A stretch of DNA of 49,782 nt from an uncultured Trueperaceae bacterium (lineage in GTDB: Bacteria; Deinococcota; Deinococci; Deinococcales; Trueperaceae). Where the stretch lies: positions 1 through 49,782 of the forward strand of contig CAJXOA010000014.1 of NCBI GenBank assembly GCA_913057685.1, written 5' to 3'. The first letter of the stretch is position 1. Each line of letters begins with the position of its first letter. Positions 24,968-26,968 of this stretch are shown here, piece by piece. Both the position numbers and the translations under genes were made by a program. The notes beneath the pieces were generated by a model. The model was not told the DNA's origin. It was given only the letters and a program-made list of their open reading frames with translations, and made no database searches.

Positions 24968-25435
24968 GTGCCGCCCTCCGCCCACCACGTCGCCGCCGTC
25001 GCCGTCCTGGTCCTGCACGAGGGCCGCGTCCTGGCGTTGCGCCGCGCCCCCGACGCCGAGGCGGCGCCCGGCGTGTGGGAGGCGCTGTCGGGCCGCATCG
25101 AGCCGGGCGAGGCGCCGCGCGCCACCGCCCGCCGCGAGGTGCGCGAGGAGGCGGGCCTCGACGTCGCGGTGGAGGCGCGCCCCTGGACCGCGTACGCCGC
25201 GACGCGGGCGGGGGAACCGATGATCGTGATCGTCTACCGCGCCGTGCCCCACGACGTGCCGGAGGTCGTGCGCAGCCATGAGCACGACGCGCACGCGTGG
25301 CTCGACGCCGACGCCTTCGCGGCGCACAGCCCCATCGCGCCCCTCGTCGACGCCGTCCGCACCGCCCTCGCCGCCGCCCCGCCGGACCCGTCCGCCGCCC
25401 CCACCGAACGACCGGCGGGGCGGCGGGCGCGTTGA
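24968..25435 (+). CDS. Nudix hydrolase
   Basis: 155-aa pyrophosphohydrolase. The Nudix box is complete: G-R-I-E-P-G-E then REVREEAGL (about residues 40-62), so metal-dependent cleavage of a nucleoside-diphosphate-X bond is expected. The N-terminal part (VAAVAVLVLHEGRVLALRRA) is the usual first strand pair. The C-terminal tail is Pro/Ala/Arg-rich and probably disordered. Substrate is unknown; the family includes NADH, ADP-ribose and oxidised-nucleotide hydrolases, and Deinococcota often carry many paralogues. GTG 24968 is set by the -10 box. Confidence 0.9.
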   Translation: MPPSAHHVAAVAVLVLHEGRVLALRRAPDAEAAPGVWEALSGRIEPGEAPRATARREVREEAGLDVAVEARPWTAYAATRAGEPMIVIVYRAVPHDVPEVVRSHEHDAHAWLDADAFAAHSPIAPLVDAVRTALAAAPPDPSAAPTERPAGRRAR

Positions 25436-25455
25436 CGGGCGCGCCGCGCGGGGGC

Positions 25456-25461
25456 TACGCT
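25456..25461 (+). promoter_or_regulatory. -10 box of the aspS leader transcript
   Basis: TACGCT, 7 nt before the leader-peptide ATG 25469. Confidence 0.6.
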
Positions 25462-25468
25462 CGCACGC

Positions 25469-25567
25469 ATGTCCGCCCGTCGGCCCCTCCGCCCCACGAC
25501 GTTCGGCCCCGCCCGCCCGGCGGGAGCGTCGGACGACAATTCGCGTAGGTCGGACCCCGGGGCGTAA
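25469..25567 (+). CDS. 32-aa leader peptide of aspS (putative attenuator)
   Basis: Small open frame from ATG 25469, placed for leaderless translation by the TACGCT box, ending TAA 25567. Residues 22-25 are Asp-Asp-Asn-Ser (GAC GAC AAT TCG, 25532-25543) and the end is Arg-Ser-Asp-Pro-Gly-Ala. AAT is a rarely used Asn codon in this GC-rich DNA. The last codons contain CCCCGGGG (25555-25562), complementary to the 5' arm of the terminator that follows. It sits directly upstream of an AspRS gene, so the Asp/Asn codons are just those whose tRNAs that enzyme would charge. The coding assignment is inferred from this arrangement; no homologue is known to me. Confidence 0.62.
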   Translation: MSARRPLRPTTFGPARPAGASDDNSRRSDPGA

Positions 25568-25588
25568 CGCCGTGCGCAACCGTGCGTC

Positions 25589-25616
25589 GACCCCCGGGGC
25601 TCCCGGGGGTCGTTTT
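25589..25616 (+). terminator. Intrinsic terminator/attenuator upstream of aspS
   Basis: Perfect 10-bp stem GACCCCCGGG (25589-25598) with CCCGGGGGTC (25602-25611), 3-nt loop, then G and TTTT (25613-25616). It lies before, not after, the aspS gene, as expected for an attenuator. An 8-bp alternative pairing with 25555-25562 would break it. Confidence 0.85.
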
Positions 25617-25651
25617 CGTGGCCCCCACCGCCCCTCCCCGAAAGGATCCAC

Positions 25652-26968
25652 GTGAGCGACCCCGTGAGCGACCCCGCGACCGCCTCCGTCCCGCCGCACC
25701 GGACCCTCGCGCGCGACCTCCCCGCCCACGACGGCGAACGCGTCCTGCTGCGCGGGTGGGTGCACGCCCGCCGCGACCTCGGGGGGGTGCGGTTCCTGGT
25801 GCTGCGCGACCGCTCCGGCATCGCGCAGTGCGTCCTGCGCGACGCCCGCATCCCCCTCCCCGAGAGCGCGGTGGAGGTGCGCGGCACCGTCGCGGCGTCG
25901 CCCAAGGCGCCCGGCGGGTACGAGGTGCAGGCGGACGCCCTGGACGTCCTCGCCGAAGCAACCGAACCGCCGCCCGTCGAGCTCCCCAAGGCGTCCTGGC
26001 ACGCGGCGCCCGACACGCTGCTGCAGTACCGCGCGGTCACCGTCCGCACGCCCGACGCGCAAGCGACCAGCAAGGTCGCTGCGGAGCTCGTGGGCGCCTT
26101 CCGGGCGTTCCTCGACGACGAGGCGTTCACCGAGATCTTCACGCCGAAGCTCGTCGCCGCCGGCGCGGAGGGCGGCGCGGACCTGTTCGAGGTCGACTAC
26201 TACGGCAAACGCGCCTACCTGGCGCAGTCCCCGCAGCTCTACAAACAGATCATGGTCGCGGTCCACGAGCGGGTCTACGAGACCGCTCCGGTGTTCCGCG
26301 CCGAGGCGTCGCACACCGTCCGGCACCTCGCGGAGTACCTCAGCCTCGACGTCGAGGTCGGCTTCATCGACGACGAGAACGACGTCATGGACCTCCAGGA
26401 GCGCCTCCTGCGCGCGATGGTACGGCGCACCTGGGCGCGGGCCGCCCCCGAACTGGAGCGGCTCGGGGCGGAAGCACCGTGGGTCGACGCGCCGTTCCCG
26501 CGCATCCCGCTGCTGGAGGCGCGCGCCCTCGTCGCCGACCGCTACGGCCACACGTCGGGCGGCAAGGACCTCGACCCGGAGGCGGAACGCCTCCTCGGGC
26601 GCTGGGCGCGCGAGGAGCACGGCAGCGACTTCGTGTTCGTCACCCGCTACCCCGAGGCCGCCCGGCCGTTCTACACGTACCCGACCGGCGACGGCGGGAC
26701 GCGCGGGCTGGACCTGGTGTTCCGCGGGACCGAGATCACGTCCGGCGGGCAGCGCGTGCACGACCCGGACGTCCTCGTCGCCGAGCTCGAGAAGCGCGGG
26801 ATGGACCCCCGCCGCTTCGAGGGGTACCTCGAGGTCTTCCGGCACGGCATGCCGCCGCACGGCGGCTTCGCGATCGGGCTCGAGCGCCTCACGGCGTTGC
26901 TGGTCGGCCTCCCGAACGTCCGCTTCGCGCGCAGCTTCCCGCGCGACGGCAGCCGCCTCCACCCCTGA
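25652..26968 (+). CDS. aspS: Aspartyl-tRNA synthetase, archaeal-type (probably non-discriminating AspRS2)
   Basis: 438-aa class IIb synthetase. The N-terminal OB-fold anticodon domain (about residues 15-115) has LLRGWVHARRDLGGVRF. The catalytic domain holds motif 2 (VFRAEASHTVRHLAEY, about 210) and motif 3 (GGFAIGLERL, about 408), plus FVTRYPEAARPFYTYP typical of the short archaeal type without the bacterial GAD insertion. The His in GWVHARRD and a Pro in the ASPKAPGG loop are residues associated with non-discriminating enzymes that also charge tRNA-Asn, for amidation by GatCAB. AsnRS is less likely but related. GTG 25652 follows AAAGGA. Expression is probably controlled by the leader attenuator. 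Confidence 0.88.
   Translation: MSDPVSDPATASVPPHRTLARDLPAHDGERVLLRGWVHARRDLGGVRFLVLRDRSGIAQCVLRDARIPLPESAVEVRGTVAASPKAPGGYEVQADALDVLAEATEPPPVELPKASWHAAPDTLLQYRAVTVRTPDAQATSKVAAELVGAFRAFLDDEAFTEIFTPKLVAAGAEGGADLFEVDYYGKRAYLAQSPQLYKQIMVAVHERVYETAPVFRAEASHTVRHLAEYLSLDVEVGFIDDENDVMDLQERLLRAMVRRTWARAAPELERLGAEAPWVDAPFPRIPLLEARALVADRYGHTSGGKDLDPEAERLLGRWAREEHGSDFVFVTRYPEAARPFYTYPTGDGGTRGLDLVFRGTEITSGGQRVHDPDVLVAELEKRGMDPRRFEGYLEVFRHGMPPHGGFAIGLERLTALLVGLPNVRFARSFPRDGSRLHP

Follow-up and report, generated by a model that had tools for sequence, protein, structure and literature searches.

A candidate asparagine-sensing leader-peptide attenuator ahead of the non-discriminating aspartyl-tRNA synthetase gene aspS2 in Trueperaceae and their relatives

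In D. radiodurans and T. thermophilus, a second aspartyl-tRNA synthetase (AspRS) and GatCAB make asparagine on tRNA-Asn (PMC4206432), and no description was found in the open-access literature of how organisms that make asparagine in this tRNA-dependent way adjust the pathway. The stretch of DNA analysed here, 49,782 nt from an uncultured Trueperaceae bacterium (the window), raises this question at the gene for such a synthetase, aspS2 (25652–26968, + strand; GTG start at 25652 with AAAGGA upstream), which is preceded by a short open reading frame (ORF) and a hairpin. The 438-residue product passes the curated cut-offs of two NCBIfam models of aspartate--tRNA(Asn) ligase (NF003483, 533.6 bits with a cut-off of 353; TIGR00458, 375.8 bits with a cut-off of 368.4), and its best PDB match is 1n9w/3kfu, the non-discriminating, archaeal-type aspartyl-tRNA synthetase 2, in entries that we take to be from Thermus thermophilus; the earlier assignment of the gene to a non-discriminating AspRS is borne out by both. 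We propose that the intervening region is very probably a ribosome-mediated transcription attenuator, which would tune aspS2, as the regulated gene, to the supply of charged Asn-tRNA.

Layout of the leader in the window

The leader begins with a promoter-like sequence on the + strand (25432–25461), in which a -35 element, TTGACG (25432–25437), and a -10 element, TACGCT (25456–25461), are separated by an 18-nt spacer. The -35 element overlaps the stop codon of an upstream Nudix-like gene (24968–25435), and the promoter was not picked up by a generic sigma-70 promoter scan of the window. A leader ORF of 32 codons follows on the same strand (MSARRPLRPTTFGPARPAGASDDNSRRSDPGA*; 25469–25567, TAA at 25565–25567), and because its ATG is placed only 7 nt past the -10 box it is probably leaderless. 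Within it lie the putative control codons GAC GAC AAT (GACGACAAT, Asp-Asp-Asn; 25532–25540, + strand), of which the Asn codon, 25538–25540, is the conserved one, and its final codons contain segment 2 (CCCCGGGG; 25555–25562, + strand; seven-nucleotide conserved core at 25556–25562), the predicted 5' strand of an antiterminator. The same sequence is repeated at 25592–25599, with which segment 2 can pair. Segment 3 (CGACCCCCGGG; 25588–25598, + strand), recognized from the terminator scan, folds and pairing counts, would serve both as the 5' arm of a terminator and as the 3' strand of the antiterminator, while segment 4 (CCCGGGGGTCG and TTTT; 25602–25616, + strand), delineated by the terminator scan, folds and compensatory changes, provides the 3' arm of the terminator.

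The promoter box, the ORF, the Asp-Asp-Asn codons, segment 2 and aspS are all found in the order and at the positions reported in the initial annotation. The terminator had been described there as a perfect hairpin of 10 bp with TTTT; the hairpin and the T-run are present, but the terminator scan gives 11 perfect pairs around a 3-nt loop (25588–25612), followed by TTTT to 25616. The motif GAYGAYAAY is not rare in the window (two matches, with 1.1 expected), and from the window alone the case for an attenuator is moderate. What decides the reality of the element is its conservation, since the architecture is shared by 93 genomes and the excess of Asn is confined to the reading frame. Elsewhere in the window, a TPP riboswitch (RF00059; 10037–10132, + strand; 58.8 bits, E 4.5e-9) is the sole Rfam match at the gathering threshold.

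Conservation, control codons and spacing across the order

The check that had been suggested for this locus, a search upstream of aspS2 in related genomes for the short ORF, the Asp/Asn codons and the paired segments, was carried out across five families of the order (f1–f5). A leader was recognized mechanically as a TTG-box followed after 15–19 nt by TANNNT, a start codon 4–13 nt further on and an ORF of 5–50 codons; where several starts fitted, preference went to TTGAC, to ATG and to a gap of around 8 nt, with Asn content ignored. By this rule, a leader is present upstream of aspS2 in 93 genomes, including that of the window and representing all five families: 30 Trueperaceae (f1; L066, one of these, is the same element as in G006), one f2, ten f3, 49 f4 and three f5. 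The ORF is kept in all 93, at lengths of 7–37 codons, in the shared order promoter, leader ORF, antiterminator segment, terminator and aspS2, and the pairings show compensatory changes in the Trueperaceae. The sequence TTGAC-N17/18-TANNNT is found at this site in 92 of the 93 leaders and TTGATT in the remaining one, the box itself being part of the search rule, and the start codon lies 7–11 nt past the -10 box in every leader (the rule allowed 4–13 nt), leaving no space for a Shine–Dalgarno sequence. In two Trueperaceae genomes (G023 and G024) the contig ends inside the leader and the remnants carry the same motif; in one f2 genome (G039) the leader is absent upstream of aspS2, which directly follows another gene. 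Genus g20 of f4 is taken to be Thermus because G074 encodes an AspRS2 nearly identical to 1n9w; those of G070, G076 and G101 are close. In the Trueperaceae alignment, a GCGTCG-like block is frequent directly after the leader stop codon, where it might form a helix within the loop of the antiterminator or serve as a site for a protein.

The leader is also confined to aspS2 and present once per genome. In 61 relatives searched with a covariance model built on it, no genome gave more than one strong match, and this lay at aspS2 wherever the site could be checked. The best extra match (G016, 28.9 bits) was rejected as a second copy: it follows an rpsT-like gene and looks like the terminator of that gene. 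No such leader was found at asnS or gatB in the eight genomes examined; in most of these, a TANNNT-like box precedes the start of both genes by about 7 nt, and they appear to be leaderless themselves (L133–L148).

Asn is present in 75 of the 76 distinct leader peptides and Asp in 57. Over 84 distinct leader DNAs, Asn codons account for 133 of 1040 in-frame codons (12.8%), compared with 8 of 956 (0.8%) and 4 of 956 (0.4%) in frames +1 and +2, and this restriction to the reading frame shows the signal to be one of translation. Since AAT (71) and AAC (50) both occur, it is the residue, Asn, that is conserved rather than one codon. In four genes of the window that were counted for comparison, Asn makes up 0.8% of the residues and is never encoded by AAT, and Asp makes up 8.6%; relative to this background Asn is about 15 times more frequent in the leaders, whereas Asp, at 10.9%, is little above it. 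The conserved Asn codon of the window leader is itself AAT, while the four genes use AAC only (10 versus 0).

The position and company of the Asn codon follow the clades. Of the 29 distinct Trueperaceae peptides, 21 have Asn at the ninth codon before the stop and, likewise, 21 have Asp at the tenth. Many Thermus leaders carry Asn-Asn without Asp (MRPRLLNNG*, MCPRSLNNA*), genus g28 of f3 has MRWARNNNA*, leaders that we call Meiothermus-like (a guessed genus name) read MLRADDNL* and the f5 peptide is MKCFFNNSADDDN*. The sole leader without any Asn (MPDALHRSTATDPGPARLGA*; G027, L018) retains the promoter, antiterminator and terminator. Its genome has three asnB-family matches and might for that reason depend less on sensing Asn; a general link between possession of asnB and loss of the canonical Asn codons was considered and dropped, as G003, G005 and G021 have asnB and yet keep Asp-Asp-Asn.

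The initial annotation had read the leader as a mixed Asp/Asn sensor. The Asn codons of that reading hold almost throughout the order, while Asp as an obligate part does not, being absent from 19 of the 76 peptides, many of them Thermus-like. A sensor in which Asp codons weigh as much as Asn codons would account for the Asp that comes before Asn in the majority of Trueperaceae, f5 and Meiothermus-like leaders, and AspRS2 can in principle also charge tRNA-Asp; we nevertheless judge it rather unlikely, given that only one leader lacks Asn, that Asp barely exceeds its background frequency and that a bacterial-type AspRS1 also supplies Asp-tRNA-Asp. The near-invariance of Asn, set beside an Asp that a quarter of the leaders dispense with, suggests a sensor of Asn first, in which Asp would be an accessory or tolerated neighbour and not one element of an obligate Asp-Asp-Asn signal.

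The distance from Asn to the antiterminator is nearly fixed within clades. Counted from the start of the last Asn codon, the seven-nucleotide core lies 18 nt further on in 19 of 29 Trueperaceae; from the first Asn, the interval is 16 nt in nine of ten f3 genomes and 14 nt in 22 of the 26 that are Thermus-like. Meiothermus-like leaders mostly have 9–13 nt, a tighter margin. In Trueperaceae the core ends 2 nt ahead of the leader stop codon, and in the Thermus-like leaders it is found at the stop or immediately past it. With a footprint that reaches about 12–15 nt ahead, a ribosome stalled at Asn would leave the core entirely or almost entirely exposed, whereas one at the stop codon would cover it. 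This is the geometry of an attenuator, in which the control codons expose the antiterminator strand and the stop codon hides it.

Two other explanations of the hairpin meet the same evidence. In the window, the Nudix-like gene runs in the same direction as aspS2, and the hairpin could merely terminate that upstream gene, with the short ORF incidental; the comparison contradicts this reading, which we reject as most improbable, because the hairpin is separated from the upstream gene by a conserved promoter, the leader is kept while the sequence upstream of the promoter varies between clades, and neither frame-specific Asn nor near-fixed spacing would be expected of it. T-boxes control aminoacyl-tRNA synthetase genes in other phyla, and a T-box or another known riboswitch might here read tRNA-Asn or tRNA-Asp directly. 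Searches of the leader with all of Rfam 15, including the T-box family RF00230, gave no match at the gathering threshold and only a chance-level one (BcKCsr7) at a relaxed threshold; moreover, the length of the leader varies widely, and what is conserved is a feature of the peptide and not a structured aptamer. On these grounds a riboswitch reading has also been set aside as scarcely credible.

Alternative pairings and the mode of termination

An attenuator requires that the two structures exclude each other, and the pairing of 25555–25562 with 25592–25599 in the 5' arm of the terminator, claimed at the outset, is recovered by folding. In the minimum free energy fold of 25541–25625, which begins after the Asn codon, segment 2 is paired with the terminator 5' arm and no terminator is formed, whereas in the fold from 25563, from which segment 2 is left out, the terminator forms. 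Across 27 Trueperaceae sequences, 95.2% of antiterminator cells are paired, compared with 72.3% for the best slid control, and two pairs (four cells) are altered on both sides; for the terminator, 97.7% of cells are paired in Trueperaceae, with compensatory changes in four pairs (nine cells). All three segments, which read CCCGGGG / CCCCGGG / CCCGGGG in the window, are changed in step in G033 (CTTCGGG / CCCGAAG / CTTCGGG) and in G011 (TTGGGG / CCCCAA / TTGGGG). Trueperaceae segments also pair better with their own partners than with swapped ones, none of 10000 permutations being as good, although shared ancestry inflates this test as well as the pairing counts. The modest covariation of the antiterminator reflects a helix that is mostly a G-run on a C-run. 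The swap test gave no covariation signal in f3, where swapped partners were slightly better, or in f4, where there was no difference; in both it is uninformative because the sequences share the same G/C runs. The folding energy of the window leader did not differ significantly from that of shuffled sequences (z = -0.10 and 0.22 for the longer folds and -1.84 for the terminator alone). No conserved pause or protector hairpin of the trp 1:2 type was recognized by eye in the Trueperaceae alignment; such a hairpin is not required in all attenuators.

The hairpin is followed by 4–9 T within 10 nt in the window, in nearly all other Trueperaceae and in f3, f5 and Meiothermus-like leaders. In the window, a predicted intrinsic terminator stands between the leader ORF and aspS2, and T-runs mark most f1, f3, f5 and other f4 leaders. 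In the Thermus-like genus of f4 the T-run is weak or absent (median of two T in 10 nt), and the lack of a U-tract means that termination there may not be intrinsic. The hairpin of these leaders (G074, G076, G080, L181–L183), built from some seven C and seven G, lacks a T-run and lies near the Shine–Dalgarno sequence of aspS2. The output in this genus may thus be translational, or may depend on another or atypical mode of termination. That part of the order uses translational control, the hairpin not being an intrinsic terminator but blocking initiation or making the mRNA accessible to Rho, is a tentative proposal that draws on the high stability and location of the Thermus-like hairpin; the T-runs found in the window and in most other clades speak against it, and we hold it to be possible but not probable. 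Since the three-segment logic is kept, the sensor would be the same whichever output is used.

Asparagine supply and the proposed switch

Taken with the conserved ORF, its control codons, their spacing and the mutually exclusive pairings, the original suggestion of a leader-peptide attenuator before a non-discriminating AspRS gene is strongly backed by the comparison. Transcription would begin at or beside the leader ATG, and a ribosome would enter the ORF from its 5' end. When Asn-tRNA-Asn is scarce, the ribosome would pause at the conserved Asn codon or the adjoining Asp codons, leaving free segment 2, which starts about 15 nt downstream in Trueperaceae; segment 2 would then pair with segment 3, the terminator would not form and aspS2 would be transcribed. 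When Asn-tRNA is plentiful, the ribosome would reach the stop codon, which in the window starts at 25565, 3 nt past the final base of segment 2, and cover that segment, allowing segments 3 and 4 to form the terminator and end transcription.

The control codons match the pathway that aspS2 serves. AspRS2 would make Asp-tRNA-Asn, which GatCAB would turn into Asn-tRNA-Asn, so that what the switch would sense is the final product of asparagine synthesis on tRNA and not the amino acid in the name of the enzyme; given that AspRS2 and GatCAB make asparagine on tRNA-Asn, an Asn sensor at aspS2 amounts to end-product control. GatB is present in 101 of 111 genomes and, like a separate bacterial-type AspRS1 and AsnRS, is nearly universal in the order, while the asnB family is scattered, with members in 34 of the 111. 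Because AspRS1 is also present, the Asn-rich leader fits AspRS2 as an asparagine-biosynthetic enzyme rather than a housekeeping AspRS. The window's own genome encodes AsnRS, AspRS1, AspRS2 and GatB plus AsnB, and AspRS2 is consequently not its sole possible source of asparagine; the AsnB is of the glutamine-dependent asparagine synthetase type (start MCGFVGLW; G000:C12, L149, minus strand). We consider it likely, with somewhat less assurance than for the attenuator itself, that the element is order-wide, probably ancestral, and autoregulates tRNA-dependent asparagine synthesis through Asn-tRNA.

If the attenuator works as proposed, the cell probably makes more AspRS2 when asparagine is short, and a product-sensing attenuator at aspS2 in Trueperaceae, Thermus and three further families would answer how the pathway is adjusted. 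The idea is testable in the genetically tractable Thermus thermophilus. The phylum and the sensed amino acid would both be new for leader-peptide attenuation, which would also take in a mis-acylating synthetase, and the leader offers a sequence signature for the annotation of AspRS2 genes.

Leader-peptide transcription attenuators are established for trp, his, pheST, ilv and leu, with proteobacterial and actinobacterial examples, and the aspS2 leader resembles them in layout: codons for the amino acid to be sensed lie in a short ORF, and overlapping, alternative antiterminator and terminator structures stand ahead of the regulated gene. In pheST, aminoacyl-tRNA synthetase genes are under such attenuation, and there, as proposed here, a synthetase gene responds to ribosomes that stall on codons for the amino acid ultimately supplied to the tRNA; PheRS, however, charges the sensed amino acid directly, whereas AspRS2 would supply Asn only via GatCAB acting on Asp-tRNA-Asn. 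The T-box likewise adjusts synthetase genes to tRNA charging, often through a terminator, but it reads uncharged tRNA without translation, whereas the aspS2 leader has no T-box match and would rely on translation. We know of no earlier attenuator that governs a tRNA-dependent route of amino-acid biosynthesis or uses Asn control codons.

No earlier report of an Asn-codon leader at aspS2 was found in the open-access literature, nor any match in Rfam 15. Neither Deinococcus nor Thermus nor aspS is mentioned in the main text of PMC2965389, a survey of terminators, and PMC2659441 offers only a predicted RNA motif at a Shewanella aspS. Related in kind, as far as these sources describe them, are a regulatory upstream ORF at Corynebacterium ilvBNC (PMC10272879) and the leaderless transcripts of mycobacteria (PMC4633059): an upstream ORF regulates an amino-acid gene and leaderless starts are common in actinobacteria, but the aspS2 leader differs in gene, codons, sequence and phylum, and no homology is claimed. 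From the classical trp, his, pheST, ilv and leu attenuators, the candidate leader is set apart by its apparent sensing of Asn ahead of an aspartyl-tRNA synthetase gene, by an ORF that is probably leaderless and often very short (down to 7–10 codons), by three segments that seem to suffice with no conserved 1:2 pause hairpin recognized, and by its occurrence in the phylum Deinococcota.
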